Shown here: piece after piece, positions 15,786 through 63,972 of the stretch
Position numbering within the stretch: the stretch's first letter is position 1
Layout of the letters: each line of letters begins with the position of its first letter
Source of the DNA: Strigamia acuminata
Lineage: Eukaryota > Arthropoda > Chilopoda > Geophilomorpha > Linotaeniidae
NCBI GenBank assembly: GCA_949358305.1
Contig: OX442315.1
Coordinates: forward strand, 7,714,427 to 7,778,426
Length of the DNA: 64,000 nt
Direction: 5' to 3'
The notes under the pieces: model-generated
What the model saw: the letters and a program-made list of their open reading frames with translations, nothing else
Databases searched by the model: none
What the model was told of the DNA's origin: nothing
Made by a program: the position numbers and the translations under genes

Positions 15786-15786
15786 A

Positions 15787-35686: not shown

Positions 35687-35705
35687 TGGTGCCGAAACCC
35701 GGGAA
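35687..35705 (+). promoter_or_regulatory. Primer-binding site of BEL element K
   Basis: TGGTGCCGAAACCCGGGAA starts directly after the LTR, identical to that of element A. Confidence 0.88.
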
Positions 35706-35737
35706 TTCTTCAAGAAAAACGAACCAGAACGAGTAGA

Positions 35738-40996: not shown

Positions 40997-41260
40997 TTGT
41001 GTTTTTTGCCACCGTGGCGCAGGTGAAAAAGCTCACCTGTGACCCAGATCTGTATTCTTGGAATTTAAGGATTAGCTTAATCCTTTTGTTTTATATACCT
41101 AAAATTTTGAATAAAATATCAGTTCTTACTTTGTAAATGTAACGAGCAGTCGTGTCCTTTTTTGTGCCTATAACTTTCGAACTTAAAATCCGACTCCATC
41201 CGTTCTTCGAGATAAGTTTTGCGAAGCAATTCATTTATTTAAGTTACGTGAGTAACTATA
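40960..41260 (+). repeat. 3' LTR of BEL element K
   Basis: 301 bp; no difference seen from the 5' copy; followed by CAAGC. Confidence 0.92.
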
Positions 41261-42828: not shown

Positions 42829-42830
42829 AG

Positions 42831-42847
42831 TGGTAGCAGAGCGCTGG
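42831..42847 (+). promoter_or_regulatory. Primer-binding site of copia element H
   Basis: TGGTAGCAGAGCGCTGG, two bases after the LTR. The core fits the internal initiator tRNA-Met site used by copia elements. Confidence 0.85.
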
Positions 42848-46600: not shown

Positions 46601-48627
46601 TCGTGCCAATGTCTAACTACACTTCTCCTCACATGTCACCACAAACTTCACCTCAAACATCACCCCCAGTGTCTCAACCTGGTTCTCCACGCAGATTCGT
46701 GACGACACGAAGAAGAGCGGCTACCTCCGTTCTCCAACATACGATACCGGTCTTCGATGCTGCCCCTATGTCCCCAGCTCCCCTCCAAGGAACTGAAGGG
46801 ACTGAAGTAGCACCTATATCTGCACATAGGACCGCTTACAAATGGAGATATGTCGGGGGAGATTCGCATTGCGCACGTTGGAGACGTGAAGAACATCTCC
46901 GCAAGGATCAGCGACCCGGAAAGATTGACACCGATGTATATTATTTCCCGGAACCGGATGTGCGACTACGTTCACGCGGGGACATCGAGAAATATTGTCA
47001 ATTTAACCATCTCGAATATAATCCGGAACTCTTTTTCTTTGGCAGTATTGAATATACTACGCCTACGATCCCTGCCAGACATGTGGCTCACCTCTGTCGA
47101 ACGGAACCCGCATCTTTCGCCGAAATTCCAAAATTCCACGATGCACCGAAATGGCGTGAAGCCATAGACGAGGAGTTGGGAACGTTTAAAGAACGTGAGG
47201 TTTATCAGGAAGTACCACGACCGCCCGACACTACGATCCTCGGATGCAAATGGATATTCAAGCTAAAGACCGACACTACCGGGAAGATTTCTCGTTATCG
47301 AGCCCGACTTGTCGCACAAGGCTTTCGCCAGACGCTTGGAGTGGACTACGATGAAGTCTTCAGCCCCGTCGTTAATTTTGTATTGATTCGATTCTTCTTT
47401 TGTCTTCTCGTCTCTCTACTCGGATGGAAGGATGCGCACTTGGATGTGAAGTGCGCATACCTATACGGGGACCTCGAACATCGCGTCTACATGCGAATTC
47501 CAGCCGGCGCTACTTGCTCGAACCCGAACAACGTCTGGTTATTGATCAAGTCATTGTACGGCCTTCACCAATCAGGCCGACAATGGTATGAAAAGCTTGA
47601 TGAGACTCTTCGTGCACTCGGTTTCCGCAAATTACCGGCGTGCAACTGCGTTTACGTATTCGGGAAATCGGCTATTATGCTAGTCTACGTGGACGATATA
47701 GTTTTATTCTACGCAACCGACAACGTCTTAACGCACCTTATTCAATTGATCTCAACGAAATTTCAAATCGTCAATCTCGGACCCATTTCGAAGTTGCTCG
47801 GCGTAGAGTTTATTAGATCCGCGGGCCGAACTTTCATTTCACAGCGTGCATATATTGCAAAAATTCTCAAGAAGTTCGATATCACACCGGATCGGATGAT
47901 CAAAGTTCCGGTCACAGTAGGAACGACGCTCGTGAAAGGATCGAAGGAAAATTTACCAGATTTTCCATACCGCTCGCTAATCGGATCATTACTCTTTTTG
48001 GCTTCAAGAACACGTCCGGACATTTTATATTCGATCATCGCTTTGTCCCAATACAACAACTGCTACGATGAATCACATATTCGGGCATTACTTCAAGTTT
48101 TGAGATACGTAGCAAATACGGCCGACTACATGATCGAACTTTCCGGATGCAACTCGAGCCAACTTTGGGCATGTACCGACGCTTCGTGGGCCTCCGACAC
48201 CGCAACATCTCTGAGTTTCGGCGGTTTCATTACCTTTATTGGCAACATACCCATCGGATGGAGCTGTAAAAAGCAATCGTCAGTAGCGTGTTCCACGATG
48301 GAAGCTGAATTCATCGCCCTCGTGGAATGCGTGAAAGAACTATACTGGCTTGATCATGTATTCCATCAACTCCCATTTCTTAATCGTTTATCATCGCCAA
48401 TCGTATACTCCGACGCTCTCGCATCGATTCAATTCACGTCGAACGATGTCGAGAATAGCAAGACTAAGCACATTCGCGTGAGGTACCATTGGTTGAGGGA
48501 GTGGTATGTGGCCAAGCGATTTCAACTTCGAAAAATTCCCGGCGACGTCAACATTGCAGACATTTTTACCAAATGGCTGTCGTCCGACCGTCTTAACAAA
48601 CTGATTGGAGGGATTTTTCAACTTTAA
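43699..48627 (+). CDS. gag-pol: Gag-Pol polyprotein of copia element H
   Basis: 1,642 residues from the ATG at 43699 (MQKGSNTSGG); the frame is open upstream without ATG. Order: copia Gag (IGNYEMWSRSMRMLLKAEGL, FLGRVDYHVRKLTDIGE); CCHC knuckle (CFNCGEKGHYANKCP, near 230); protease (WIVDCGATDHVSHV, near 319); Pro/Ser-rich linker; integrase HHCC region (HSRLGHLH, CNHCRIAKS); the D,D,E core (VIDDATRYSW near 655, IRSDRGGEFMS, NGTAERINRT); a second Ser/Pro-rich linker; RT (ILGCKWIFKLKTDTTGK, VYVDDIVLF near 1329); RNase H (CTDASWASDTATSLSFGG, STMEAEFIALVECVKELYW). The protease motif is DCG rather than the usual DSG; the decayed relative C has the same, so this is a lineage trait. All catalytic motifs are present. 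Confidence 0.96.
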   Translation: MQKGSNTSGGHVPILAIGNYEMWSRSMRMLLKAEGLWHHITEENEKDFLVTATEKEKLKFQRKKDKALGLLYIHLSEAKKSALDSVKTPKEGWDALAKIYAPSSRARKAALRREFLNLHIDKNEEMADFLGRVDYHVRKLTDIGETVSPDHQAYQYLDMLPPEYSQVSFAIYHWDDDKFKPNIVSDQLLAEYMRLKTYSSRDTSGNSSAYASDRGRNRNRTPRPIESVTCFNCGEKGHYANKCPKPRQDNRQPLPAVSLQRPSRSKSRRRNKNTASKPADGKPRGNSQVRRESNFFVNAPPHLVQSPTVHFMQGHEWIVDCGATDHVSHVQSWFVDFVTVVPFDIELGQGHSQVTGKGTVRIQTLIDGCECIVNLRDVLFAPNFEANLISVSKIDKNEHHIHIFKGEVNIYQTDARSPVLRAKEKGGLYYVDGLCSSATISTTVSTVPPPTSSQTPPVRTMVTVEEDFVKIPKSKKKSQPRHITDFRFDVANSPPPTPIPPIPNAIPAPQSTSPPLPPSTSLPPAAVPPLQSYTNALKSISLTSPPNTSSPSNPKKVAAPTSKQDATGIWHSRLGHLHTAAMRLLAANEQVYGVESGEVSKELACNHCRIAKSIRASHKPDPHPVSTTALDLLHMDVWGPAPMTSFGDARYVLTVIDDATRYSWIIPMAQKSQVFGVFKDFVARIENVAGTRIKAIRSDRGGEFMSNEFLRYLKDKGIEGQRTNPSSPQMNGTAERINRTMIDNVRATLEETRLPDELWAEFAVTFAYLKNRSPHSRLKNEVPYILWRQRALSLRHLRKLGSKCWVHYTAPGRNKFEARAWEGYLVGYATGTRGYRIWNPVDNKVVESIHVKIDERITYRKSLRNGNRTSFESPQRPPNQSGPHVNFDDNITYVRWSKTADSEDGSSSSDEESDMPPLEESSSSAASAQFQTPERQFQEACALRLPSSDSNLGDDTDRDIDDIDEVSLVPMSNYTSPHMSPQTSPQTSPPVSQPGSPRRFVTTRRRAATSVLQHTIPVFDAAPMSPAPLQGTEGTEVAPISAHRTAYKWRYVGGDSHCARWRREEHLRKDQRPGKIDTDVYYFPEPDVRLRSRGDIEKYCQFNHLEYNPELFFFGSIEYTTPTIPARHVAHLCRTEPASFAEIPKFHDAPKWREAIDEELGTFKEREVYQEVPRPPDTTILGCKWIFKLKTDTTGKISRYRARLVAQGFRQTLGVDYDEVFSPVVNFVLIRFFFCLLVSLLGWKDAHLDVKCAYLYGDLEHRVYMRIPAGATCSNPNNVWLLIKSLYGLHQSGRQWYEKLDETLRALGFRKLPACNCVYVFGKSAIMLVYVDDIVLFYATDNVLTHLIQLISTKFQIVNLGPISKLLGVEFIRSAGRTFISQRAYIAKILKKFDITPDRMIKVPVTVGTTLVKGSKENLPDFPYRSLIGSLLFLASRTRPDILYSIIALSQYNNCYDESHIRALLQVLRYVANTADYMIELSGCNSSQLWACTDASWASDTATSLSFGGFITFIGNIPIGWSCKKQSSVACSTMEAEFIALVECVKELYWLDHVFHQLPFLNRLSSPIVYSDALASIQFTSNDVENSKTKHIRVRYHWLREWYVAKRFQLRKIPGDVNIADIFTKWLSSDRLNKLIGGIFQL

Positions 48628-48840
48628 CCGACTAAGACATTTTTAAGTCATTCTACCGACTTCGAGGATCGTCGTGTTCTGTGGGAATTTTCGGGCTTTA
48701 TTGTGATTGTGTTACAGTACCCGGCACGATGATTCGATCTATTATTTTTGGTTTTCACACATCGGTACACCATAATTCTCGTGTTACTTTTTCAGTTGTT
48801 TATCCAGTTTCCCAGATCAGTATCGAATCATGGGGGGATT

Positions 48841-49450
48841 TGTTGGTCATATGATTCGGTACGGATCACAAATTATTATTTGAGTCGATGTTATCAATGA
48901 TTATTCAGTATTCATTATGTTATTTACCTTTTATTGACTCTTTTCAATGTATTTCTTATTTTGGATATGTTCCAAGTTGTATTCCGTACAATTGTACGTG
49001 ATTGTGTTATATTTAAGTGCATTAAGCACCTTGCTGTTAGTTTTCCATCAAATGCATGTGGCATCATGCATCTTGTAATATTTTCCTTTTTTATATTGCC
49101 CAATTCTAACACCAGATGGTGTTATCGTTTGTTATTCTCACCCAAGATGGCCGCACACAGGTGCGAGGATGTTTTCCAACCATTTCAAATGAATAGGAAC
49201 ATTACATGTAAGCATTATTTCGATTAAACATTATATTTTATTGTTTTAACTCATTGCCAGTTAACCTAGCACGTTTATAAGTGCTTAGTTTATAGTTTTT
49301 GCGCAGATAAGTGGCATTAGGCCACGCGCACTTGTTTTTCACGGCAAAACGTCCGTGTTACGTTCGTCTCGGGTCGAGACGGCGCCTTCCGTGCTAAATA
49401 CACGCTTCCACCGGTGTTATTCGCACCGTTTTGCGCTTCACTGGCCTACA
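48841..49450 (+). repeat. 3' LTR of copia element H
   Basis: 610 bp, preceded by the polypurine tract and followed by GCAAA. Confidence 0.93.
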
Positions 49451-49542
49451 GCAAATCCCAACGTGATTAGCACCCACAAAGGTGTTAAATCGGCCAGGGG
49501 CATTTGGGCTGAACAGTGGCTTTAACTGTCTGTATGCCGACT
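49451..49542 (-). pseudogene. MULE-type transposase remnant, middle piece
   Basis: 92 bp between elements H and J. The minus-strand frame continues from 63065 and into 42213, and contains GRFNTFVGANHVGI, resembling G-W-H-x-x-F-x-x-x-V-G-x-x-H-P of MULE transposases. The preceding stretch (LKPLFSPNAP) seems to have lost about 40 residues against that family. Confidence 0.4.
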
Positions 49543-50538
49543 TGTGGTGACCCGACTGGGGTGGGGCACGAAGAGTTTCTCTCGTGGCCTACATACGGGT
49601 AAAGAAGGGGAGTCGCACGCGCGCCTCCCTTCCCTCAGAGCATTGACATCCAGTCAATGGACGGGCGTCTGCCCTGGGGGAGTGGGGGAGATTCGTCTTC
49701 TCCACTATTGGGTGGCTTTAGTCACCTGTCACCCCCCGCTTTGTGCAAAGGAATTCGCCTTGCACTGAGCGGGCAGAACCAACACAAAAATCAACCAAGA
49801 TACACGTAAAAGCCAAACGTCCTAAAACGATCAAGCCTAAGTACAAAGACTTCAGGAGTGACCTAGGACAAGGGACTTTCAACGTGAGTACGATTGATTT
49901 GTGTTAACCTCCGCAGAGTAACCTGCGAAACAAGATTACCACACTATTTTAGCAAGCCAGCTAGAAATAGTAAACCTACTCCAATTTAGCGAGTTGTGCA
50001 GACAAACGGTCGCACAAGCCTAAATTGCAGTAACCACGACGAGCGTTCCCGCCGCTGTGTGTATCGCCGGGAACCACCAAGCGTCCGCCGCTGTGTGATC
50101 GCCGGACACCTACAAAAAACCCTAAACCTAGACAACAGACCAGAAGTAAGACCTTTCAGGCATTCACTCGCGCCCGACCAGCGTGAGCCCGAAGGACCGA
50201 ACGAGAAACGTGAGACGAGGACGCCATTCATTGCCACGCCGGCCCAAGACGACACCACGTTGCCACGCGGACGCCATCTTGGATCCACAGCGACAAAGGA
50301 CGACCTCGACCAGTTTCCCGCCAACTTCACACCCCTTTCCTTTTACCTTTTTATTCCCTTACATATTTTATTCCCTTTTAACTGTATATTCCCGTATAAT
50401 AAATACATTTATTATATTTACCTTTTACATTGTCTTGCCGTGTTACATTATTTGGGTAACCGCTTGAGTAAAGCGGTATTGCGAGATCAGAGAGTGACTC
50501 ATACCTCGTATCAGCGACAGACCGAGTTGAGCGCGACA
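49543..50538 (+). repeat. 5' LTR of gypsy element J
   Basis: 996 bp, TGTGGTGACC to AGCGCGACA. AATAAA at 50398-50403 lies in TATAATAAATAC. Small open frames inside recur in the other LTR copy and are not thought to be genes. Confidence 0.94.
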
Positions 50539-50540
50539 CG

Positions 50541-50558
50541 TGGGGGCCTGTCCGGGAT
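50541..50558 (+). promoter_or_regulatory. Primer-binding site of gypsy element J
   Basis: TGGGGGCCTGTCCGGGAT, two bases after the LTR. It differs at two positions from the complement of a tRNA-Pro 3' end (TGGGGGCTCGTCCGGGAT), so tRNA-Pro or a similar tRNA is the likely primer. Confidence 0.7.
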
Positions 50559-50606
50559 CGATTTAAACGACTCGAATAGAACTTGAGATCATTTTCATAC
50601 CCAAAA

Positions 50607-53600
50607 ATGGCAGACAATATCCGAGTAACGGATTCCGACTCCGACGCGAACAAGAGAGCCGGCAGTCGTAAAGGCGCCGACTATCACTTGCGATCTGGAG
50701 GTCCCTTACCCAAAGCCTCAGCGCACGAAGCGAGGCAAAAACGGCGCAAGCCTAAACCCGATCGCAGAAGCGCATCAGAGGCATCGCACCCGTCTCGTTC
50801 CGAGACGAGGCAGCGATTGGACGAGACAGAGCGGGGTGAAGAGCAATCTCACTCCAAACTGCCGCGTTCTAACCGTGACGGCGAGACGAGCGGAAACGAG
50901 GTTTTATCCCGTAACCCATCGCCTCGTCTAACGCACGACACCGAGGTGGGCAGTCCGAAAGCGGCGTCTCCGATACAAAAGACGGCCTCAAACACGACAG
51001 CTAATTCGGCACTAAACACGCCAATTACGCAAAGCCGCCCAGCTTCGGTCAGGTCCGAAGGACACAAGTCCAATGCGTCAAAAACTGAGCGTGTTCCGAG
51101 CCAGCCTTACAGCGTCTCGGCCACATTGGTTGACACGATGCAGTTGGCACAGGCAGAAGGTGTACGATACACTCTGCCAACGGGAAAAATAACTGTGTAC
51201 GAAACATTACAAATCGTACGTGCAGCTTTAAGAGCGCACAGGTTATCCCCAGAAATCACCGTTGTTGAAGACGCATACGCTCAACAAATGGTAGACTCCG
51301 CTCAATTCGAAGCGGATGCCGAGAATGAGGCCCGACAAGCCATCCGCGAGAGAAAGCGGAAGCTGGCGGAAAGAGAAGCGCGAGCTCTCGAGTACGGCAA
51401 ATCCCAGCGCGTTCCGACTACTCCAGAAGAAGTCGAAATAGTTGATCGAGCCTTACATGCACATCGTTATGCATTCCGTTCTCAACAAGAAGCTGAACAA
51501 GCTTTCATGACTAGGCTGCAACGAGACAAACCAAAATCCGTTCGCAAGCCAGAAGTTAGCTCGTCCGAATTGTCCGACGAGAGCGTAGAAGGCGACCCGA
51601 AGCGCACGCCGAAGGTCAGCCCCAAACCCGAGCGAAAAAAGGAAGTGCCAGTCACTCCACGCAAACGGGAAGTCTCGACCGAACAACGCGTTCGACCTCG
51701 CATGATGGCGTTAGACGATAACACTAACAACGCTATCAACCGATTAATAAATGCGAACAACGCGCGTCGTAACGAAGAACAGACTCACACGAGCCGACAA
51801 CGCGACGACCCGCGGGGTAACGACTGGCAACAGCCGGTACCCATCCTCAAAGACGACGGACCTTCGAGAAAACCTTCCGAAGACCGCACATCGTCACGAG
51901 AGGAACGTCAACGCGAAAGAGGACAGCAACAGTATCACTACGGAAACAGTGATTCGTCGTCGGATGAACTGGAGTCGAATGCACCCAGTCATCACGATTC
52001 GGAGAGAGGTTCCGGAGAAAGACGAAGGGAAAGAGAACGCGATGAACGCAGGGAAAGGGAACGTGACGACCGTCGTAGGGGCCGGAAAGAGTCAAACTCT
52101 TCACGGCGCAACCCGCCACGCCGCTCACCGTCTCCCGACCCCAGCTCCGACCCCTCGTCCAACGACGACAGACGAAATGATAAGTCAAGTAATCGCCGGA
52201 AGAGATCCAACTCTCCGCGCGATAGAGAGAAACGACGTCGATCGGAAAATAGCGACCACCGACGGGAGGAGTTTCAGGACCTTCCCCGACAAAGCGCGTT
52301 TACCGATTCGACGGGTCGGCAGTATACGATGGGAGAGCTTGGAAGAGCCCTGCTTGGCTCGTTAAAAGCCGAAGGAATCGATCTGAGCAAACGAAATGAT
52401 CGTAATCGTAACACTGGTGACCGCGTAAAGAAAAAATACGCTGTCTCCCGACGTGACACCATGAGTGTTACCGGGAATATTAGGTGGCAATTTTATATTC
52501 AGAACCGTTTCGACGGGTCATGGAAAGCGGGAGATCGCTTCCTTGACGAAGTAATTCGGATTAAGACTGCCACTAAAGCCACCGTAGGAGACATGCTCAC
52601 CCACGGTATTGTCGAGCTAATGACAGGCTCGGCACGTGAGTGGTACCAAGGATTGAAAGGCGTCAATTGGGACGACTTTTTAATGAGATTCGACCTGCGC
52701 TACGGCGAGACACCCGAAGAGGTGAGCCGAAAGATGCGAGGTCTTCGCCAGATGCCTGGTGAAACCATAATGGATTACGACATTCGCGCCAGATTGTTGT
52801 TCGAAAAGGCCCCGATGGAATTTCATGCCACGGGATTCAACCTTTTCTTTCTCGGCGGTTTGTCGGAATACTCGCAACGGGTGCTACTTGAAGAAAGGGC
52901 ACCGACAGGAGGCAGCTACGAAGAAATGAGCGCCTTCCTGTTCGAGAACACGATAGATATCGAGAAGAGATATTATTCCGCTTTACCAGAAGCGGAGAAA
53001 GCAGCAACCGCTAAACGTCTCAAGTTGAGTGCGGAAAGATATGGGGCGACAGACAAAATCATGCGCCCTACTGAATATCTTAGCGGTATAATGGAGCTGG
53101 CAGAAGCTAGCGTTGGTTTACAAATAAAAAATAAACTGACATCCACGCTGCCTTCCAACCCATTGGCCGCCCCTAAAAAGGCACCGACAGCGTCAGCCAT
53201 GCAAGCGACACTGGAGGAGGTCAAGGAGGGGGAGGAAGCCGAACAAAATGTCGGAAAATCAGACGAAAAAGAAGAAAAAGACGATTATTCGACGGACGAA
53301 GAAATACGAAGCTATCGCGATACCTTATCAACGGGTTGCGATGAGGAAGGACCGCTAGTACATCTCATCCATCGAGATAGAGCGGTAGAAGAATTTCGCG
53401 CCAGGTTAAAACCAAATGCCGGCCGAATTCCGAAGTATTTTCGAAAAAATTACACGCCACCGTCGAAAGTAGACCCTGAAAAAAAGAAATCGATTGAAGC
53501 CCCAAGAGACAAATCAAATATTCGTTGTTTTAAGTGTAACCAACCGGGTCACTATTCCAATGAGTGCCCAAGAACAGCGAAAGAAGACGCTAAGTTTGAC

Positions 53601-53687
53601 GCGATAATGAAGCAGATGGCAGAGATTAAACTCGCCATGGCAAAAAACGAGTCAAAAAACGAGTCAGCGCAGGCGGCGAAGAAATAA
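50607..53687 (+). CDS. gag: Gag protein of gypsy element J
   Basis: 1,026 residues from the ATG at 50607 (MADNIRVTDSDSDANKRAG); the frame opens 24 bases earlier without an ATG. The first about 590 residues are highly charged, with Arg/Glu/Ser-rich low-complexity stretches (RERERDERRERERDDRRRGR) that look disordered and RNA-binding. The capsid-like core follows (about 610-770: RWQFYIQNRFDGSWKAGD, GSAREWYQGLKGVNWDDF). A single CCHC knuckle (CFKCNQPGHYSNECP) lies at 53524-53568. It is unusually long for a gypsy Gag (commonly 300-500 residues). The last codons contain the two slippery heptamers, so most ribosomes should stop at 53685 and some should shift into pol. Confidence 0.93.
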   Translation: MADNIRVTDSDSDANKRAGSRKGADYHLRSGGPLPKASAHEARQKRRKPKPDRRSASEASHPSRSETRQRLDETERGEEQSHSKLPRSNRDGETSGNEVLSRNPSPRLTHDTEVGSPKAASPIQKTASNTTANSALNTPITQSRPASVRSEGHKSNASKTERVPSQPYSVSATLVDTMQLAQAEGVRYTLPTGKITVYETLQIVRAALRAHRLSPEITVVEDAYAQQMVDSAQFEADAENEARQAIRERKRKLAEREARALEYGKSQRVPTTPEEVEIVDRALHAHRYAFRSQQEAEQAFMTRLQRDKPKSVRKPEVSSSELSDESVEGDPKRTPKVSPKPERKKEVPVTPRKREVSTEQRVRPRMMALDDNTNNAINRLINANNARRNEEQTHTSRQRDDPRGNDWQQPVPILKDDGPSRKPSEDRTSSREERQRERGQQQYHYGNSDSSSDELESNAPSHHDSERGSGERRRERERDERRERERDDRRRGRKESNSSRRNPPRRSPSPDPSSDPSSNDDRRNDKSSNRRKRSNSPRDREKRRRSENSDHRREEFQDLPRQSAFTDSTGRQYTMGELGRALLGSLKAEGIDLSKRNDRNRNTGDRVKKKYAVSRRDTMSVTGNIRWQFYIQNRFDGSWKAGDRFLDEVIRIKTATKATVGDMLTHGIVELMTGSAREWYQGLKGVNWDDFLMRFDLRYGETPEEVSRKMRGLRQMPGETIMDYDIRARLLFEKAPMEFHATGFNLFFLGGLSEYSQRVLLEERAPTGGSYEEMSAFLFENTIDIEKRYYSALPEAEKAATAKRLKLSAERYGATDKIMRPTEYLSGIMELAEASVGLQIKNKLTSTLPSNPLAAPKKAPTASAMQATLEEVKEGEEAEQNVGKSDEKEEKDDYSTDEEIRSYRDTLSTGCDEEGPLVHLIHRDRAVEEFRARLKPNAGRIPKYFRKNYTPPSKVDPEKKKSIEAPRDKSNIRCFKCNQPGHYSNECPRTAKEDAKFDAIMKQMAEIKLAMAKNESKNESAQAAKK

Positions 53688-53705
53688 CTTCTCGACCGTC
53701 TGCGC
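53642..53705 (+). promoter_or_regulatory. Programmed -1 frameshift signal: tandem A_AAA_AAC heptamers plus hairpin
   Basis: AAAAAAC occurs at 53642-53648 and again at 53654-53660, each in the X_XXY_YYZ phase of gag. After a 6-base spacer (53661-53666) a 10-bp stem follows: 53667-53676 pairs with 53696-53705, with one G-U. A second 4-bp stem (53678-53681 with 53688-53691) holds the gag stop codon near its loop. A -1 step enters the pol frame, which is open from the slip site to 57781. Confidence 0.9.
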
Positions 53706-53710
53706 CATTC

Positions 53711-56700
53711 ATGAAGAAGAAGGGGTTTAACAAAGGGTTCGATAAACCGCCACCAGTCAAAGAAATGGGTAGTGACATAGCTAACGCCCAGATCCAAGAC
53801 AGGGCCAACAACGCTTTGCAGGTAATTACCGCAAACGCTGAGGCTGAGGCGGAAGAACCAAACCTACTGCTTGAAGAATTACCTCAAGTAGTCGAAGACA
53901 CAGAAGAATTTCGTGTTTTCATGTGCAACGTGGCGGTCGAATATACCAGCCGCCTATGTATGCTGCCCATGACAATAGAACGCGAAAAAATTATGGGACT
54001 GCTAGACTCGGGAGCAGATCGCTCGTTCGTTTCCGAAGACATAGTAGCATCATTGGGTCTCACCGATAAGATAAAAGGCGTTAATAAAAATGTACGTCTA
54101 AAAACCGCCAACGGAATGGCGCGTCCAAAAGGAGTTATATTATTGACCATGGAGTGGCTCGGAGGGGTAGAACAGCACCCTTTCCTGGTCCTGCCCACGT
54201 GCGACAGAATTTTTCTGTTGGGCTTAGACCTCATGGCGTCAATGGAAATACAACCAAATCCAATAACGAAATCTTGGAATTATATCAGAAATGATAGAGA
54301 AAGACCCGCAATTGTCGTGCCACCAGCTCTTATCAAAGAAGCGGCCGACAAGACACAGTGGGAGAAAGGCCTAAAGAAATTCGTTCAAGACTACAATTTT
54401 AAAGCATTCGTAGCAGAATTGCAACGGGACAATGTAGTGGAAACGCTTGTCGCCGACGCCGCTTTAGAATTAAACGAAGCGGCAGCCCTACGAAGGGTCC
54501 TACTTAAATATGAGGGGATCCTGTCGAAAAAACCGGGCCGAACGAATAGGGCTATTCACGAGATTAAATTGACGGATAATAAACCTATACGAGTTGCGTA
54601 TAAGGGAATGAATCCGCAAAAACGTGAAATAGTGCAAAAAATGTGCCAAGAAATGCTAGACAGTGGCATTGTCTCCGAGGCCCAGGGAGAATACGCGACG
54701 CGAGTTGTGCTCGTGATGCGCCCGGGCTCGGACCCACGCCTATGCATTGATTACCGCCCATTAAACGCGGTGACAGAGATAGATCCCATACAGATGCCGT
54801 CTATCGAATCCATTTTGAGAGAGCTTAGCCCCTTTTCTTGGGTTACGACGATGGATCTGTCGAAGGGATACTGGCAAGTTGAGATGAGGCCAGAGGATAA
54901 GCTAAAAACAGCATTTTACTCGCCAATTGGACGGTTGATGTTCAACGTCATGCCGTTTGGTTTAGTGAATGCTCCCAGTACCTTTCAGAGACTAATCGAA
55001 AGCGTATTGGGTGATATCCTGCATCAGTTCGTGTGGGCATACCTAGATGACATAGTTATTGCCTCTAAAACATTCGAAGAGCACATTGAGCACATCGACC
55101 AAGTGCTCACCCGGCTGGCGAAAGCTGGGTTACACGTTCACCCGGGCAAGAGCAAGTTCTGTCGAAAGGAGCTTGCCTTCCTGGGTTATCGCATTGGAGT
55201 CAATGGTTTAGCTATTGGCCCCGAAAAAATCGATGCGATTAATCGTTTCCCACCACCCGAGGACGTTAAAGGTGTCCAACGGTTTATGGGAATGATAAAC
55301 TTCTTCGGCAGGTTGCTACCGGGTCTAGCTGAAGTGGCAGCCCCAGTTACCGACCTCCTGAAGAATGAAAACGAATTTGTATGGTCAAATGAGTGCAACA
55401 TCGCATTTAATGCGATAAAGAGGATGCTGACGGAAGTCGGCGTAATGCCTCTACCCGACTTAAACCGGCCGTTCATATTACATACGGACGCCAGCAGAGT
55501 TGGGTTAGGAGCCGCGTTGCTCCAAACTCACGTGCGCGACGGAGTCGAACAAGACCTGCCGTGCATGTTTATAAGTCGCAAACTCCAAGGCGCTGAAAAA
55601 AATTACAACGCCACAGAGTTGGAGTGTTTGGCAGTTGTGTGGGCTATAAGAAAATTCAGAGATTATCTCGAATATACCAAATTCGTAGTCCACACAGATC
55701 ATCAAGCGTTACAATGGCTGATGAAATTAAAAGAGCCAGCCGGTCGACTAGCCAGATGGCAGTTAGAACTGATGGCATGCGACTTGACCATTCAATACAA
55801 GCCCGGCAAATATAACGTCGTGGCTGACGCTCTATCAAGGGCACCAGTGTCAGATCCTATCGACGCTGACGATGATGGCGAGGATGATTCCCGCATCATT
55901 TACTGCCCGACGAGTTGTCACCGTTGGGATTTAAGGAAAATAAATGAAATTCCCACCGCGTCTCCAGCAGATGTAAAATTCTGTGGATTCTGGACGCGGT
56001 TATACCAACCAGCTGCTGACAATTACCCAAATGCAAAGAAGGAATTTAAGCTAGAGCGGAGAATAAATGACCCGCTTCTAAGCGCCTTCCACACTCATGT
56101 CGGCAAGCAAATGCGAAGCAATCCCCCGACAAGGGAGGAAATAATTGTGCAACAAAAATTAGACAAAAAATGTCAGGACAGAGCTAGATTCGTACTGACA
56201 GGAAAATATCCGCCCAACTTAACCAGAAGGCAGAAGCGTCGTTATGCACACGAATCCATAGATTACCTATTGGATGACGGCCTTTTGGTGAAACATCACC
56301 CAAATCACCAAGATGACTTGAGTGAATCGGACACCGCAGTAAAGGTAGTAATACCTGCTTCCTTAATCGGTCGCGTGCTGTGGTTGTTACACGGGCACCC
56401 GCTTGCGAGCCATGCGGGAGTAAGCAGAACACTCTATCGTGCTACACAGCTTTTTCACTGGACAGGGATGAAAAAAGATATTGCTCTTTTTGTCCACCAA
56501 TGTCAGCGATGTCAAGCGTGCAAGCCGAGGAGTAAATCACCATTCGAAACTATTTTCTTAGGGCCTTACGCGCCTTTTGATTGTTTAAGTGTCGATGTGA
56601 TGGGCCCAAAACCCGTTACGGGAAATAAAAATGCGTACATTATCGTTATAATGGACGTGGCGACTCGTTGGCCCGAGTTGTACGCCGTCGCTAGACCTTC

Positions 56701-57781
56701 AGCAGAAAAAATCGTTGAATGTATCTACGACGTAGCGTTACGTTACGGATTTCCACGTAAAATGATATCCGACAACGGACCCCAATTTATCTCGAAAATT
56801 TGGGGTAAGTTTTGTGAGAAATTCGGGATTGTGGCGTCACATACTTCGACCTACAATCCCAGAACAAATCCCGTTGAGCGACTCAACAGGGACATTAAAT
56901 ATGCACTAAGTATATTCACTGACATCCACAATAGGTGGGATGAATACTTGAGGGAGATCGCGTTCAGCATACGAACAACAGTCTCGAGGACGAGAGATTT
57001 TTCTCCGGCCTACCTCAACTTCGCCCGGGAGCTACGAGTGCCTTGGGACCCACGAGTGGCAGAGTCAGTAAATGTCGTGGACCCTGAGAAACTACATGAG
57101 TACGTGTATAAATTGGAGCAAACCATCTCCAACACGTACAAGCACATGATGGCGCACATTTTTAATATGCGCGACCGCATTTTACAAGATAAAAGCGGTA
57201 GAAAATTTGTGAATTTCGAGATCAATGATTTGGTGTGGAAAGACACACACATCCTCTCAAATGCAGCGAGAGGAATCACCGCCAGCTTGGCCGACAAGAG
57301 AGATGGTCCGTATGTGATCATCGGCAAGCATGGCGGTAACGCGTATAAACTACGTAAGCTCGAGGACAATACCGAGCATAAGTCGATCCAGGTACGAGAG
57401 TTAACTCCGTACATTCCGGAATTCCCGCAAGAAATGTGGGCAAAAGGCCAAGTCAAGTCTAAAACTGACGGCCAAATCGTCGATATGTTCGCTGGCGAGT
57501 CGGAAAAAGCACCGCCAAGTGACAACGAGGAGTATTTCGACGCCCCTTCACCACCGGTAAACGAGATAGTTGAATCCGTTCCGGATCCAATTTTGGTCGG
57601 GGGGGAAACAGGAGAAACTCCTGAAACAAACACAAAAAACACGGATAAAAAAGAAAACAGTAATGAGGAGGTACAGACACAAAAAACAACAAAAAATATC
57701 GTACCTGTCTCGACTCATCACCTGCGGCCCCGTGGAAGTAATCCGTTTATAAAAGACGGAAAGGTCGTAGGAAAGGAGTAG
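53711..57781 (+). CDS. pol: Pol polyprotein of gypsy element J
   Basis: 1,356 residues counted from the first ATG, but probably made as a Gag-Pol fusion by the -1 shift upstream, since the pol frame is open from 53642. Order: protease (LLDSGADRSFV near 97), RT (WVTTMDLSKGYWQVEM, catalytic YLDDIVIAS near 444), RNase H (HTDASRVGLGAALLQ near 591, TDHQALQWL), integrase zinc-binding H-H-C-C (HPLASHAGVSRT ... CQRCQACK near 900-940), the D,D,E core (VDVMGPKP, SDNGPQFISK, NPVERLNRD), then the GPY/F module (RDGPYVIIGKHGGNAYKL near 1198). The acidic C-terminal tail has no chromodomain. All catalytic residues are present. Confidence 0.95.
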   Translation: MKKKGFNKGFDKPPPVKEMGSDIANAQIQDRANNALQVITANAEAEAEEPNLLLEELPQVVEDTEEFRVFMCNVAVEYTSRLCMLPMTIEREKIMGLLDSGADRSFVSEDIVASLGLTDKIKGVNKNVRLKTANGMARPKGVILLTMEWLGGVEQHPFLVLPTCDRIFLLGLDLMASMEIQPNPITKSWNYIRNDRERPAIVVPPALIKEAADKTQWEKGLKKFVQDYNFKAFVAELQRDNVVETLVADAALELNEAAALRRVLLKYEGILSKKPGRTNRAIHEIKLTDNKPIRVAYKGMNPQKREIVQKMCQEMLDSGIVSEAQGEYATRVVLVMRPGSDPRLCIDYRPLNAVTEIDPIQMPSIESILRELSPFSWVTTMDLSKGYWQVEMRPEDKLKTAFYSPIGRLMFNVMPFGLVNAPSTFQRLIESVLGDILHQFVWAYLDDIVIASKTFEEHIEHIDQVLTRLAKAGLHVHPGKSKFCRKELAFLGYRIGVNGLAIGPEKIDAINRFPPPEDVKGVQRFMGMINFFGRLLPGLAEVAAPVTDLLKNENEFVWSNECNIAFNAIKRMLTEVGVMPLPDLNRPFILHTDASRVGLGAALLQTHVRDGVEQDLPCMFISRKLQGAEKNYNATELECLAVVWAIRKFRDYLEYTKFVVHTDHQALQWLMKLKEPAGRLARWQLELMACDLTIQYKPGKYNVVADALSRAPVSDPIDADDDGEDDSRIIYCPTSCHRWDLRKINEIPTASPADVKFCGFWTRLYQPAADNYPNAKKEFKLERRINDPLLSAFHTHVGKQMRSNPPTREEIIVQQKLDKKCQDRARFVLTGKYPPNLTRRQKRRYAHESIDYLLDDGLLVKHHPNHQDDLSESDTAVKVVIPASLIGRVLWLLHGHPLASHAGVSRTLYRATQLFHWTGMKKDIALFVHQCQRCQACKPRSKSPFETIFLGPYAPFDCLSVDVMGPKPVTGNKNAYIIVIMDVATRWPELYAVARPSAEKIVECIYDVALRYGFPRKMISDNGPQFISKIWGKFCEKFGIVASHTSTYNPRTNPVERLNRDIKYALSIFTDIHNRWDEYLREIAFSIRTTVSRTRDFSPAYLNFARELRVPWDPRVAESVNVVDPEKLHEYVYKLEQTISNTYKHMMAHIFNMRDRILQDKSGRKFVNFEINDLVWKDTHILSNAARGITASLADKRDGPYVIIGKHGGNAYKLRKLEDNTEHKSIQVRELTPYIPEFPQEMWAKGQVKSKTDGQIVDMFAGESEKAPPSDNEEYFDAPSPPVNEIVESVPDPILVGGETGETPETNTKNTDKKENSNEEVQTQKTTKNIVPVSTHHLRPRGSNPFIKDGKVVGKE

Positions 57782-58261
57782 AAAACGTTACGAGTCGATG
57801 GCGACGCTGAAAAACAAAAAAATTGACCGATCGACAGCGCTAGCCATCAAAATCCGAGACTCTGAAAATTTCGCTAAGTCCAACAAAGCGGATATCGGTC
57901 GAATTCGCGTCACGAGATGGCGTGGAAACGCGGGACCCGTAGCAAAATTATCGGCACGGGTCGGATACCGCGTGCAAAAGACCCCGTAGCAGCGATCGCG
58001 CACGGGCGTAGAAACAAAGGAGCCCCGTAGCGTAACATGCGCACGGGCTGTTGCGCACAGTCATAAACACCTGGTTCTGGAGTAAAATTACCCAGAACCC
58101 ACCACGATTGCCTCGTTTTCACCCGGACTTCCGCTAAAATCAGCTGATCGTCGTCCGCACGTGATACACAGCGAGTGCATTTTTAACCAAGTTTTTGATC
58201 CATTTTACGAGAAGTTTTCAAGTTTTTTAATCGTGGTCTGACTGAACGCGCAATCCTCACG
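57782..58261 (+). other. Pol-ORF3 spacer with three related hairpins
   Basis: Three consecutive units pair CCCGT(AGC) with (GC)ACGGG: 57934-57962 (perfect 7-bp GACCCGT/ACGGGTC), 57983-58006 and 58021-58049. The first two copies start 49 bases apart and the next about 41. A 63-codon frame at 57798-57989 overlaps the first hairpin and has no known domain. A role in RNA export, packaging or ORF3 translation is possible but only inferred. Confidence 0.6.
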
Positions 58262-61200
58262 ATGGATGAGGAAGGAGGGGACGAGGAAATGCTTGAAATA
58301 CAGCATCATGACGAGAATTGGGACCCGGACATAAACGTAGTTCCACCCGATCAGGTAGTAGTCGGCATCGCCGCACGAGATTTAGCTCCGTGCGGTCGAA
58401 TTAAAGATACACTTGACTAATACTTGACATGAACGCTCTGCGTTCGAAATAGTGTATAATTATTATACTAATATCCACGATCGCGAGAGCGATTGTATTT
58501 TCTCCTATTATTTGTCTTCAAGGACGCGATAGCAGACAAACTGTCGCCTCGCTCCTTGAAGATGACTCACGACAATTGACACGAACGAGACAAAGGAAAC
58601 GAGCTTTCTTTTTATATTCCAGAAATGGGAATAATTTATTGGATGGATTTTGAAAGAATTTATAGAACGTTGTTTCTATTTTTATTTGCTATTTTATTTG
58701 CGAATTTTTTCCCGATGACACTAATTTATTATAGATTCGTTTTTTAACTCGACTTTAACTCCGAATTTTTGGAGTTATTATTAGACAAATTTATTTCTTT
58801 ACAAGTTAATTCACGACAAGAACATTTGTTTACATGTTCTAAAATTGTTATTGGAGATTTTCACGAACGATTTCGCGAATTTATTGGTTTAAATACAAAT
58901 TTACAGTTTAATTTTAAATTAAGCAATCCGAAGAAAAATTTCCGGATTAATACGCTCGATTCCGTCTCGTGGTTATCATTGGACGTGAACCAGATGTGCC
59001 AAGAAGACTCTTTTCTTCCTGACAAGGACGAATCAATGAACAGGAATAGGACTCGACGAGCGGTCGCACGTTTCAGCGACGTTCCTCGAGCCCACCCCCT
59101 ATTTATCTCCGTGTTATTGGCGATTTCATTAATTATTTTGTTTCCATCATTGCAGATGGAGCTCCGAGACACATGGGGAGCGCTCAGCCCCGCATGCATA
59201 GTGCGAGCGGGCATATATCGAGGCGTACTGCCCGATTTTCTGCGCCGCTGCTTTGGCGAAGATGCGAAGCCATACCGCCTGCGCGTATTATTTTCGCGCG
59301 CCCTCGCCAAGCGTTGGGTTAACGATTGTACACTCCTGGACGCGTTCCCGGAGTCGGTGCGAAACGTCGTCGCTGCAGAGCTCGCTCGCATCGATGACCC
59401 GAAGTCACCAATCTTCCACCCGGCCCTGTCGAGCCAATACTCCGGCAGGCCGGCGGAGGAGCATGTGTTGTTCGCGTGGCAAGCGGCCGAGACCGAGGAG
59501 GCCCGCGAAGAAGTGTATCAACACTACCGCCAGCAGCTAATCGACACTGCGCCGGCGGTTGCAGAGCGGATTTTGCAAGACGACGGAATGAGCACCGCCG
59601 ATATACATCTGTGGTGCGAGCAGATTCGGCAGGGAGAAGTTACGCCACAGTGGCGACCGAGAATGGGGATTCTCACGTCACAAGCTGAAATGTGGCAACT
59701 CCACTATTTGGGAATTCTCGGCCCCAAATATAATTTCCCAAGGAAGCGCAAGCGCTCCAAGGGAACCGGGGGCAGCGAATCGCGCTCCCCGGGACGGTCG
59801 AAGAAACAGTGCGTCGAACAGCACTCGACCGTCAACGATGGAGCGGGAACGTCAGCGCAGCCACCGCGCGACCCCGCGAATTACACCAGACCAAGGGTGT
59901 TCGTCAACCGTCAGATGAAAGACGGTAAAGAGACTCGAGAAGTCTGGATTTCGGGTGACGAAGAGCGAGTCTCTCGTCCCCGTGTCGGCAGACATCCGCT
60001 AACTCATCGTGAGCAGCGGAAACGAGACCGCAAAGAGCGGTATTTCGCTCGCTGCGAGGCGCGAGGAATTCCCCTTCCCGAACACGCTCTCAAAGCAATC
60101 GAAGCGAAGGAAGCGAGAGAGGCACGATCGAAGTCGAGTGGCCGATCTTCCGGGGAGCGTCGCGTCCTAGCGCCAGACACGCGGGACCTTCGCGAGATCA
60201 TCACCCAGATGAAACGCAAGAAATTGTCTCGTTTCGACCCCGCGATGCAGTTCGCTCGCAAGATGGGCGTCGTCGAGCATGGTACCGTGATTCCACACGA
60301 AGTGGCACGGTGGTTAAGCGAATATGTCAATTCGCGACCGCGTGTAGAAAACGCGCCTACGGCCGTCGTTCCACCGACGAGTACTGTAAGCCAGCTCCCG
60401 GCACTCCAAGTCACGCCGACTGGAGTGCAAGCGACGCTGCCACCGCCAACACAACAGTCTTTGACGTTGCTGTTGCCGACGCAGTCATCAACGTCGCAAC
60501 CGTTGCCAGCACAGCAGTCCCTGACGCTGCCGCCGCCGACACAGCCGCTGCCGCCGCCGACGCAGCCCCCGCCGCCGCCGCCGCCGATGCCGGGTTCGAG
60601 CACTACGCCGAACTTGGCCGTCGACGACTCGGTGATGTTGCCCGTTCACCAGAGCATTGCGCGGGAATGCCATAACGCCCGATTCGGAGAATATTACCCG
60701 AGCAAGGCAAGACACGACCGCACCGCGATGTGGTATGAACAGCGTGACGAAAACGCACGGCTGGCTCGAGAAGCAGCCAATCCATCGATCGAAGAGCTCT
60801 TGGCCTTCGCATTTGTGATGGAGGACCCGAGAGCCGCCGCCGCTGCTCTGCAGGGCGCCGACGTCACTCAGCGCCATTTCATCGAGTGGGGGATTTCGAT
60901 GATGCGGCACCACTCGCGCGCGTTCGCTGCAGATCCTGATCGCAGCAACCCTGTAAATCGGCGCAGTCTACAGCTGGCTTTGACGAAGATCATGGTCCAG
61001 TTATTGACCCCCTCGCTCTTTGGGGTCGGACGACAGGCGATGGCCTGTTGGTCCGTAGTCGACAGAGAGGGTGTGCAGATACCTCGCGCACTCGTTGGGG
61101 AATGGAGCGCCATTCTCCCCAACCCGGCGATGACTCGCTTCGAGCTGACCCGGGACGTGGTGAACCCCGAATGGGAGGGGTATAAGTTGCGGAGCATGGC

Positions 61201-62029
61201 CTTCCGCCACGCCGTTACCACGTGGGAGCCAACACCGTCAGCGCAGTCACACGCAATGATGGTCACGAGTGAAGAGCCGATGGAGAGCGACGCCGCCTCT
61301 TCGACTGCTTCACGTGGAGCCCCAACTCCACCTCCGCCGCCGCCGCCGCCACCGATGCCACCAGCGGCGACGCCACAGACACCCGTCCTATCAAATGCGG
61401 CGGGTAAGCCTAGACGCCTGCTATGCCGGACGCCGCCAACGATGTCCGCCGCTCGCCAGAGCCTGACGCCTCCCGCAGCCCAAGAAGCGCAGGAAGAGAC
61501 TGTCCAGCAGGCAGTGGTTTCGAAGAGCGCCAAGCCAGCGAAAGCGGCGAAGCCTCCGACAAACTACTATGAGAAGTTGTGTGACGAGTTCTCTCAGCTG
61601 TCGATGACGACGGCGACGCGCAAATTCATCCTCGCGCAGAGAGACAAGGGGAAATCGGTATTCGTTTGGCTACACAACCAGGTGCGCCAGACCACCGATT
61701 TGATCCTCCATCAGCGTTTGCTGAGGGCCCACCGTGCGCCTCGAACGGCCGCGGAGGCGAACGCGATCCGGCACACCAATTCCGGGTTTTCGGCGTTCAT
61801 TCCGCGGGTTTGGCTGCATGAGAGGAGACGTGCCCCGTACGAGCCAGCCGGCGGCCACGCATTGTGCTTCATTTCCGAGCACGAGGACCCCCGCGACCAG
61901 TCTTCAGCCTTGGTTGGAGATCTGGTTTTGCCGCCCGGCGTTGTGCCGCCCGGCGCTGAGCCGCCCGTCCCTGGAGTGAGTTTCGCCCAGGCGATGGATC
62001 CAGCGTCGGGTCCCAGCAAGAAGGATTGA
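58262..62029 (+). CDS. Third ORF of gypsy element J, probably spliced (exons 58262-58354 and 59156-62029)
   Basis: Function not recognised. Exon 1 starts at ATG 58262 (MDEEGGDEEMLEIQHHDENW), is acidic, and is 31 codons up to the donor CAG|GTAGTA. Unspliced it stops at 58418. The acceptor TTGCAG|ATGGAG is at 59155/59156, and the join keeps phase 0, giving about 988 residues. Exon 2 is first a moderately conserved-looking part (MELRDTWGALSPACIVRAG), then basic segments (KRKRSKGTGG, HREQRKRDRKERYFARCEAR), Pro/Gln/Thr repeats with poly-Pro runs near 60520-60600 and 61327-61360, and a more ordered C-terminal region (NYYEKLCDEFSQLSM, FIPRVWLHERRRAPY). No envelope features are visible: no signal peptide, fusion peptide or C-terminal anchor in the spliced form. 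The intron's 3' part stays open in frame (from 58769) and would encode a hydrophobic stretch (LFISVLLAISLIILF) if retained. Confidence 0.65.
58355..59155 (+). other. Predicted intron of gypsy element J ORF3 (801 bp)
   Basis: GTAGTAGTCGG at the donor and TTTCCATCATTGCAG at the acceptor. It is far more AT-rich than the exons, especially 58600-58960, with an inverted repeat near 58450-58470 (GTATAAT/ATTATAC type). Not confirmed by RNA evidence. Confidence 0.6.
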
Positions 62030-62055
62030 TCGCTCCGAACACCGGCGGTCAGAGC

Positions 62056-62066
62056 TGGGAGGGGGA
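62056..62066 (+). promoter_or_regulatory. Polypurine tract of gypsy element J
   Basis: GGGAGGGGGAC just before the TG of the 3' LTR. Confidence 0.75.
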
Positions 62067-62068
62067 CG

Positions 62069-63064
62069 TGTGGTGACCCGACTGGGGTGGGGCACGAAGA
62101 GTTTCTCTCGTGGCCTACATACGGGTAAAGAAGGGGAGTCGCACGCGCGCCTCCCTTCCCTCAGAGCATTGACATCCAGTCAATGGACGGGCGTCTGCCC
62201 TGGGGGAGTGGGGGAGATTCGTCTTCTCCACTATTGGGTGGCTTTAGTCACCTGTCACCCCCCGCTTTGTGCAAAGGAATTCGCCTTGCACTGAGCGGGC
62301 AGAACCAACACAAAAATCAACCAAGATACACGTAAAAGCCAAACGTCCTAAAACGATCAAGCCTAAGTACAAAGACTTCAGGAGTGACCTAGGACAAGGG
62401 ACTTTCAACGTGAGTACGATTGATTTGTGTTAACCTCCGCAGAGTAACCTGCGAAACAAGATTACCACACTATTTTAGCAAGCCAGCTAGAAATAGTAAA
62501 CCTACTCCAATTTAGCGAGTTGTGCAGACAAACGGTCGCACAAGCCTAAATTGCAGTAACCACGACGAGCGTTCCCGCCGCTGTGTGTATCGCCGGGAAC
62601 CACCAAGCGTCCGCCGCTGTGTGATCGCCGGACACCTACAAAAAACCCTAAACCTAGACAACAGACCAGAAGTAAGACCTTTCAGGCATTCACTCGCGCC
62701 CGACCAGCGTGAGCCCGAAGGACCGAACGAGAAACGTGAGACGAGGACGCCATTCATTGCCACGCCGGCCCAAGACGACACCACGTTGCCACGCGGACGC
62801 CATCTTGGATCCACAGCGACAAAGGACGACCTCGACCAGTTTCCCGCCAACTTCACACCCCTTTCCTTTTACCTTTTTATTCCCTTACATATTTTATTCC
62901 CTTTTAACTGTATATTCCCGTATAATAAATACATTTATTATATTTACCTTTTACATTGTCTTGCCGTGTTACATTATTTGGGTAACCGCTTGAGTAAAGC
63001 GGTATTGCGAGATCAGAGAGTGACTCATACCTCGTATCAGCGACAGACCGAGTTGAGCGCGACA
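62069..63064 (+). repeat. 3' LTR of gypsy element J
   Basis: 996 bp; no difference seen from the 5' LTR; AATAAA at 62924-62929; followed by GACT. Confidence 0.94.
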
Positions 63065-63147
63065 GACTGTACTTTGTTTGTAGGCAAAAATGTGAGAGCA
63101 GAGAGCTGGGGTACTAGCATTCGAACATCATTTTCTGCGCTCTGTAT
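63065..63147 (-). pseudogene. MULE-type transposase remnant, N-ward piece
   Basis: The minus-strand frame contains VPQLSALTFLPTNKVQSAY, resembling the L-x-x-L-A-F-L-P-x-x-x-V-x-x-A-F block of MULE transposases. It opens after an in-frame TAG (63148-63150) whose AG could also be a splice acceptor. It continues at 49542 across element J. Confidence 0.45.
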
Positions 63148-63150
63148 CTA

Positions 63151-63594
63151 TTTCAAGTTATAAATTGATCTTACTGTCTAGCTGTGGCTGTTAACACATG
63201 TGCGTGACTTGTTTAGATGTGTGAAAACACCATTAACCATTAGGCGTGTGCGTTGTTTTTAGTTGGCGAGGCGTTGCGCTATTCACAAAACAACACAACG
63301 CATGCGTTATTTGACAACAACGCAATAACTAAGCCTGCTATTTTTGCGGAAAATAAATTTTCCCCAAAATGTTTTTAAACTTGCGGATAGGCCAAATGCA
63401 GCATTTTGGCACTAAAATTTTTCAATTCTGACTCAGTTTTTTCTCTGCAATTTCCGCAATTTGACCATGTTACCGCAATTTTGCGGAAAATTCGCAATTT
63501 GCCAATAATAGCCCATTATTGGCCAATAATGGGCCATTATTGGCAAATTTCAGGTGTGATAGTATTGCGTGATACGATATCACGTAATAATTTC
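63151..63594. other. AT-rich non-coding DNA with inverted repeats
   Basis: No supported gene. It contains TTGCGGAAAA/TTTTCCGCAA-type inverted motifs (near 63345-63490) and the 50-bp palindrome listed separately. Confidence 0.5.
63498..63547. repeat. 50-bp near-perfect palindrome
   Basis: Arms of 25 bp around a central GGCC, built from GCCAATAAT / ATTATTGGC units, with a single mismatched pair (63510 with 63535). Confidence 0.9.
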
Positions 63595-63894
63595 GTTTAA
63601 AAACTTAAAATTATGTTTAACAACTTAAAATTTTGTTTAAACACTTCAAATTTCGTTTAAAAACTTTAAATTATGTTTAAAAACTTCAAATTTTGTTTAA
63701 AAACTACAAATTATGTTTAAAAACTTCAAATTTTGTTTAAACACTTCAAATTTCGTTTAAAAACTTTAAATTTTGTTTTAAAACTTCAAATTTTGTTTTA
63801 AAACTTTAAAGTTCCTTTAAATACTTCAAATTTTCTTTAAAAACTTAAAACTTTCTTTAAACACTTCAAATTTCGTTTAAAACCTTGAAATTTT
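63595..63894. repeat. Tandem array, 20-bp unit x 15
   Basis: Consensus GTTTAAAAACTTCAAATTTT, exactly 20 bp per unit with no length change over 300 bp. The pair of units starting GTTTAAACACTTCAAATTTC recurs at units 3-4 and 8-9, and in a CTTT form at 14-15, hinting at a higher-order period. Confidence 0.92.
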
Positions 63895-63917
63895 GGTCAT
63901 AAACTTTCCGGATGAGC

Positions 63918-63972
63918 CCACAATACGTCCGCAATACGCCCGCAATACGTCCACAATACGTCCGCAAAATGG
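63918..63972. repeat. Tandem array, 11-bp unit x 5
   Basis: Units CC(A/G)CAATACGT or close variants; the last unit is diverged. It continues close to the window edge. Confidence 0.85.

Follow-up and report, generated by a model that had tools for sequence, protein, structure and literature searches.

A spliced third open reading frame under purifying selection in a Ty3/gypsy retrotransposon family of Strigamia acuminata

Introduction

In Cer1, a Ty3/gypsy element of C. elegans, the open reading frame (ORF) in the env position is unlike Env; it has a KRKK signal and is part of CERV, a protein of 517 amino acids translated from a spliced mRNA of five exons, the first three of which are in the gag frame (PMC10309623). 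Export of Cer1 genomic RNA requires CERV, which contains a Cys loop and a candidate export signal, and the last-exon acceptors of Cer1 relatives read TTTCAG or TTGCAG (PMC10309623). Here we describe a third ORF (ORF3) of element J, a Ty3/gypsy long terminal repeat (LTR) retrotransposon of 13,522 bp (49543–63064), which lies in a 64,000-nucleotide stretch of Strigamia acuminata DNA, hereafter denoted the window (G000:C3:7714427-7778426 in an assembly of 237.5 Mb). An original prediction, made from the sequence of the window, had proposed that ORF3 consists of two exons separated by an 801 bp intron. We find that ORF3 is, to near certainty, a genuine spliced accessory gene of the element J Ty3/gypsy family, and there is very little doubt that the gene, its splice sites and the selection acting on it are real.

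As in Cer1, the ORF lies between pol and the 3′ LTR, lacks Env features, is spliced and encodes a K(K/R)x(K/R) signal, here KRKR, the comparison being one by description (PMC10309623); neither ORF3 nor CERV has obvious homologues outside its lineage. The Env of gypsy-type errantiviruses is likewise encoded by a third ORF after pol with the involvement of splicing, but exon 2 of ORF3 lacks a transmembrane segment and has neither a furin-type site nor a glycosylation pattern, and the pol of element J is isolated (PMC4276936). The ORF3 proteins of bdelloid rotifer LTR elements are also non-envelope proteins in the env position, of types common to different elements; they are recognisable enzymes (GDSL, DEDDy), whereas the element J ORF3 has no Pfam match (PMC5408684). 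MDG1-group elements, which are env-less Ty3/gypsy elements, carry the accessory ORF sORF2, which differs in encoding a short transmembrane protein from transcripts that gave no evidence of splicing (PMC11952523). Finally, plant LTR retrotransposons can carry additional sense ORFs between pol and the 3′ LTR, of unknown role and sometimes spliced (barley Bagy2), although the hosts are different and this comparison, too, is by description (PMC7264820).

The splice model and a natural intronless copy

ORF3 is encoded on the forward strand, and its layout is as originally predicted. Exon 1 (58262–58354; 93 nt, 31 acidic codons) ends at CAG|GTAGTA, with the donor at 58355; the GT-AG intron (58355–59155, 801 bp) is indeed AT-rich, with a GC content of 36.6%; and the acceptor TTGCAG|ATG at 59155/59156 opens exon 2 (59156–62029), which has 957 codons plus a stop codon. 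The ORF3 product was also rightly described as basic and Pro-rich (for exon 2, 10.8% Pro; 125 K+R vs 101 D+E), and the GC content of exon 2, approximately 0.6, is higher than that of the rest of the element. The open frame of exon 2 is not due to chance, since none of 4000 Markov sequences with the dinucleotides of exon 2 stayed open.

Seen from the window copy alone, the 801 bp intron is weakly supported, a plausible but not a proven splice. By matrix scoring of donors and acceptors, CAG|GTAGTA comes first among the donors of 57782–59000 (score 5.14, the next being 2.39), but ranks 16 of 467 across the element; the acceptor at 59155 ranks fourth within 57700–59400, and a further in-phase acceptor lies upstream of it at 59026. 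Of 1000 Markov sequences modelled on 57782–59000, 8.6% gave an ORF of at least 31 codons that starts at ATG and ends in phase at a donor scoring at least 5.

The splice model is settled by an intronless copy, together with a diverged module which has two matching exons (see below). A search of the assembly for the end of exon 1 followed, after 0–6 bases, by the beginning of exon 2 revealed a junction with a gap of 0 at one place, C4:18096148-18096175. This copy matches the window through 58354 and picks up again at 59156, with the CAG of the junction assignable to either side; it thus carries the exact junction at the predicted boundaries, as expected of a reverse-transcribed spliced RNA. The gag start, the pol end, ORF3 and both LTRs are present in the pieces read, the two LTRs differ by one indel, and the copy is flanked by its own 4 bp duplication, CTAT. 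It is an independent LTR-type insertion from an RNA template without the 801 bp intron. An identical product could also have come about through deletion between two CAG triplets; however, with 8588 pairs of equal triplets spaced 500–1100 bp apart available in 57800–59600, a chance deletion at exactly the predicted CAG pair is unlikely.

Purifying selection on ORF3

When the assembly was searched with the exon 2 protein, the best 48 of 3050 first-look candidates were scored, a sample which favours good matches; all 48 matched exon 2 at 98–100%, and 47 were without a stop codon. The pieces running from the end of pol to the LTR were aligned for all 48 copies, the window included. The 43 real indels in exon 2 are all multiples of three (a 44th, of 66 nt in copy L031, was discounted as merely the cut end of a piece); in the intron, aligned without the intronless copy, 42 of 43 indels are of 1 or 2 nt. 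Relative to the window, the exon 2 variants comprise 124 synonymous and 57 nonsynonymous changes, giving a ratio of nonsynonymous to synonymous variation (pN/pS) of 0.15, and those present in at least two copies comprise 88 and 27, respectively (pN/pS 0.10); exon 1 has 4 and 5 (pN/pS 0.25, from small numbers). The donor reads CAGGTAGTA in 47 of the 48 rows, and the acceptor TTGCAG in 46 and TTACAG in one, the remaining row being the intronless copy.

Purifying selection acts on the exon 2 protein. The dN/dS comparison among copies, which the original prediction had proposed as a check, is answered by the pN/pS of 0.15 above and by a ratio of approximately 0.17 against the module that is 66% identical; random nonsense across the copies was not found, given that nearly all of those scored lack a stop in exon 2 and the real indels preserve the frame. 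The prediction had also taken an intact frame between identical LTRs as a sign of selection. Selection is borne out, by the other copies; the identical LTRs alone say nothing about it, because a young copy would be intact anyway.

The frame of exon 2 extends open for 136 codons upstream of 59156, into the intron (58748–59155; P ~0.001 under a Markov model). This extension and the in-phase acceptor at 59026 are the points in favour of ORF3 being translated without the 801 bp splice, from the ATG at 58994, as a membrane-anchored protein of 1011 codons. However, the upstream stretch has a pN/pS of 0.52, and 5 of 47 copies (L033, L038, L053, L054 and L055) carry stops or frame-shifting length changes in it, so it is probably not coding; nor is the frame kept in the diverged copy L060, and the existence of the intronless copy also argues against unspliced translation, which we regard as extremely improbable. 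That so long a run of AT-rich codons is open in the window, yet broken in these copies and absent in L060, is perhaps due to chance. Two further copies, L010 and L033, show likeness to element J starting only at 57975 and 57865; as the window has no AG at either position, these copies are truncated or rearranged, not spliced.

A sister module and exchange of the ORF3 cassette

A search of the assembly with residues 490–700 of the exon 2 protein, in which the best 150 of 837 candidates were scored, gave 107 places at 91–100% identity, one at 76% and 42 at 66–68%. The last group represents a sister module, and in 34 of the 42 places the open frame is exactly 929 codons long. Among the matches listed, 38 of the 42 are on contig C1 (67.0 of the 237.5 Mb), which may reflect the handling of tied candidates.

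For the sister module, the sequence through ORF3 was read in one copy, L060. This copy keeps exon 1, the phase, the donor and the acceptor: its acidic exon 1 of 30 codons, which over 32 columns is 59% identical to that of the window, ends at CAG|GTAGAA, its intron is 847 bp long and resembles that of the window mainly in the first 240 nt (74%), and its exon 2 of 921 codons is opened by TTCCAG|ATG. The exon 2 proteins of L060 and the window are 66% identical over 919 aligned codons, with a dN of 0.25 and a dS of 1.47 (near saturation), giving the ratio of approximately 0.17 referred to above. The best-conserved 30-residue windows of exon 2 are 76–105, 166–195, 616–645 and 811–840, and the proline-rich linkers are poorly conserved; at this level of identity, the two modules reveal which parts of the ORF3 protein matter.

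The pol of the L060 element (L065) differs from window positions 55367–57713 at 66 of 2347 bp, 53 of the differences being synonymous (97% DNA identity). One rate cannot yield both a near-identical pol and an ORF3 dS of ~1.5; the block after pol has thus been exchanged between elements with near-identical pol, and this exchange shows a way in which accessory genes of this kind can be reshuffled. In 60-nt steps, the boundary is a mosaic, with identities of 75–84% over 57701–57880, 98–100% over 57881–58000, 87% over 58001–58060 and 52–72% from there up to 58300. At three places, pol is fused in one frame to a sister ORF3 without its N-terminal part: C1:59.19 Mb (L062 and L066), C1:1.19 Mb (L063 and L067) and C9:0.96 Mb (L064 and L068). 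Two of the three have a common junction with an overlap of 16–17 bp, which suggests that the fusions arose by template switching and were then amplified.

The ORF3 protein and its possible origin

As predicted, ORF3 belongs to no recognised family: exon 2 matches no Pfam family at E ≤ 1, and no credible family was found for pieces of exon 2 or for L060. Protein-database searches gave nothing at E ≤ 10, either with exon 2 (the 7991 top word-sharing candidates scored) or with residues 490–700 (4672 candidates scored). There was no credible match to ORF3 in PDB, NCBIfam, phage records, viral contigs, prokaryote contigs or PHROGs (best E 0.065 for the last), and several of the collections searched may omit records of the window's own genome. 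Exon 2 has no late-domain, WH2 or RGG motif and no recognisable hydrolase or exonuclease domain of the GDSL or DEDDy type, and nothing in the literature searched was recognised as element J or the ORF3 protein. A KRKR nuclear-localisation motif at codons 197–200 (59744–59755, forward strand) is kept in both modules, and is known as a motif only.

The absence of envelope features was also correctly called, in that exon 2 has no transmembrane segment (best KD19 1.39), one NxS/T and no RX[KR]R. These properties count against ORF3 being a second structural or transmission protein, that is, either a component of the particle or a substitute for Env that is unrecognisable by sequence. Such a role would suit the env position, and Env-replacing accessory proteins are known, as exemplified by sORF2 of MDG1-group elements (PMC11952523); moreover, with a start at the ATG at 58994, which is in frame, the protein would gain a hydrophobic segment (KD19 2.46). 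However, this upstream frame is the one broken in 5 of 47 copies, it amounts to merely 8 codons in L060, and the hydrophobic stretch overlaps the pyrimidine tract of the acceptor. On balance, a structural or transmission role appears rather improbable.

Two short candidates from the same region were rejected. A hydrophobic ORF of 40 codons (58625–58744) was considered as a FAST-like protein, and 31 of 300 Markov sequences give an ATG-ORF of at least 25 codons with a KD19 of at least 1.6. If exon 1 is read on into the intron, the frame has 52 codons in the window and 37 in L060, with unlike ends. For a short protein with one transmembrane segment, of the sORF2 or FAST-like kind, exon 2 is unsuitable, having 957 codons and no such segment, and L060 does not retain the hydrophobic frame that starts at 58994.

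The high GC content relative to the rest of the element, the exon/intron structure of its own and the lack of an element homologue in the databases searched would each be expected if ORF3 were a host gene, captured with its intron at the DNA or pre-mRNA level and passively carried. Passive carriage is at odds with the dN/dS of ~0.17 between modules and the pN/pS of 0.15 among copies, and with the stop codon lying 39 nt before the 3′ LTR. No match to an ordinary host gene was obtained in the collections searched, and no host paralogue in the genome search, which scored the best candidates only. We therefore consider passive capture very unlikely, though ORF3 may be an older host capture later put to use.

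Tandem hairpins between pol and exon 1

The gap between pol and ORF3 contains three tandem hairpins (57936–58047, forward strand) of the form CCCGUAGC-(9–10 nt)-GCACGGG, each with a bulged A, which are a candidate RNA element. The gap holds three instances of the pattern CCCGTAGC-(9 or 10 nt)-GCACGGG, at 57936, 57983 and 58024, and 100 shuffles of the window held none. Folded alone, the stems, with the bulged A, give z-scores of −4.3, −2.0 and −2.8, and the full 480-nt gap gives −3.6. Nothing in the window reached the gathering score of an Rfam family; 57700–59200 gave two matches far below their gathering scores.

All three hairpins are present in exact form in 40 of 49 sequences, namely the 48 copies and L060. 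No hairpins were found in L061 and L065–L067, although these sequences were not shown to cover the gap. When L010 and L033, which diverge by more than 5% in the gap, are excluded, 7 of 170 sites are variable in 57881–58050, 13 of 211 in 58051–58261, 99 of 801 in the intron and 174 of 2871 in exon 2. The hairpin block is quiet, but only slightly quieter than exon 2.

The hairpin array is a candidate target of the ORF3 protein, and its proposed action as an RNA element is one that we infer from the pattern and its folding. The repeats could also be DNA-binding half-sites, as inverted half-sites of this kind suit a DNA-binding protein equally well. ORF3 would then act on the DNA side, as a companion of the pre-integration complex, a chromatin tether, a factor steering integration or an insulator/enhancer factor on the CCCGT half-sites, for which the conserved KRKR motif and the basic stretches of the protein would be appropriate. 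No DNA-binding domain was recognised, however, and a function on DNA leaves the retention of the intron in both modules unexplained; we consider it unlikely.

A possible role in RNA export

The reading that we favour, whilst putting it somewhat short of probable, is that ORF3 has a role in the export or the splicing balance of the element's RNA, by analogy with CERV and Rev; with CERV, ORF3 shares position, splicing, lineage restriction and a KRKK-type signal. Spliced RNA would give rise to the ORF3 protein, which the KRKR signal would direct into the nucleus. There, ORF3 would bind unspliced genomic RNA, perhaps via the array of three bulged hairpins that follows pol, so that RNA with the intron could leave for the cytoplasm, where Gag-Pol would be translated from it and the RNA packaged; a feedback loop would link splicing and export. 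The proposed logic is that of HIV-1 Rev and of the export structure of Mason-Pfizer monkey virus, with a nuclear protein and/or an RNA structure releasing intron-containing genomic RNA, but ORF3 differs from Rev in having no sequence link to it and no export-signal pattern, and its RNA binding is putative (PMC10309623). A more elaborate version, possible but doubtful, is that the family has a Rev/RRE-like system of its own, sequence-unrelated to those known, in which a large nuclear protein and three bulged-A hairpins (CCCGU-A-GC/GC-ACGGG) would form one exchangeable cassette that recombines between elements with near-identical pol, with the intron as a sensor of export takeover.

A number of observations weigh against an export role. 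The C4 copy reveals that RNA lacking the 801 bp intron was itself packaged and integrated. In addition, exon 1 follows gag and pol even in that copy, which shows loss of the 801 bp intron only and keeps the gag start and the pol end, so the access of ribosomes to exon 1 is unexplained; the likeliest answer, by analogy with gypsy, is an additional splice from the leader, which would let ribosomes reach exon 1. No RNA-binding domain was recognised in the domain searches of exon 2, its pieces and L060. Unlike CERV, ORF3 has no cysteine cluster in exon 2 resembling the CERV Cys loop, and neither module contains the leucine-rich export-signal pattern given for Cer1 GAG, other export signals not having been sought (PMC10309623). 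The proteins also differ in build: exon 2 alone has 957 codons, with two exons known, compared with 517 amino acids and five exons for CERV, and exon 1 starts downstream of pol at an ATG of its own, whereas the N-terminal exons of CERV come from gag (PMC10309623).

Decayed copies and the hairpins themselves add to these points. Among the 107 scored places at 91–100% identity, four have a stop within the 211-residue match, and 20 have an open frame of fewer than 900 codons. The 195-nt hairpin block folded alone is unremarkable (z-score −1.7), and 9 of the 49 sequences have only two hairpins in exact form; among these nine, L010 lacks element sequence before 57975, and in L054 and L055 the change converts a U-A pair to U-G. 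The near-identity of the hairpin block between modules may, furthermore, be a recombination tract and not a sign of constraint. With many near-identical copies of the element J family in one genome, the question of what ORF3 does is testable.

Organisation and surroundings of element J

Element J has the LTRs, polypurine tract, gag, pol order (protease, reverse transcriptase (RT), RNase H, integrase) and short target duplication of a Ty3/gypsy element. All of its features are on the forward strand. The 5′ LTR (49543–50538) starts with TG and ends with CA, and is identical to the 3′ LTR (62069–63064) over 996 of 996 bp, as originally noted; the target-site duplication GACT flanks the element on the left (49539–49542) and right (63065–63068). 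The primer-binding site (50541–50558) resembles what we take to be the complement of the 3′ end of tRNA-Pro. The gag gene (50607–53687) encodes Retrotrans_gag and a CCHC zinc knuckle; pol runs from its first ATG at 53711 to 57781, and its frame is open from 53630, overlapping the end of gag in a different frame. The polypurine tract is at 62057–62066. A solo LTR of the element J family, 97% identical and with TGGT on both sides, is on the reverse strand at 33748–34739.

A tree was built from 76 RT-RNase H rows, comprising the window and 75 of the 120 matches listed. In it, the pol of element J forms a long isolated branch (end branch 2.1) in no supported group, with a best identity of 45%; it does not join either of the rows whose names refer to Ips erranti-like virus 3 and to transposon 17.6. 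The original comparison of ORF3 with errantivirus env thus concerns position alone, and an errantivirus label is unsupported for so isolated a pol.

The remainder of the window contains further transposons. A Copia element (42219–49450) has a gag-pol frame of 1660 codons, and its 610 bp LTRs (42219–42828 and 48841–49450) are 100% identical by self-comparison, as are those of two BEL/Pao elements, at 35385–41260 (302 bp LTRs, with a frame of 1772 codons) and at 9833–16411 on the reverse strand (625 bp LTRs). Two reverse-strand ORFs, at 5353–6408 and 8269–9447, have leucine-rich-repeat matches (the first below the Pfam cut-off) and are 85% identical over 894 bp; they are possibly related host genes between transposons. 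Directly downstream of element J lies a tandem array with a 20 bp period (63529–63946).

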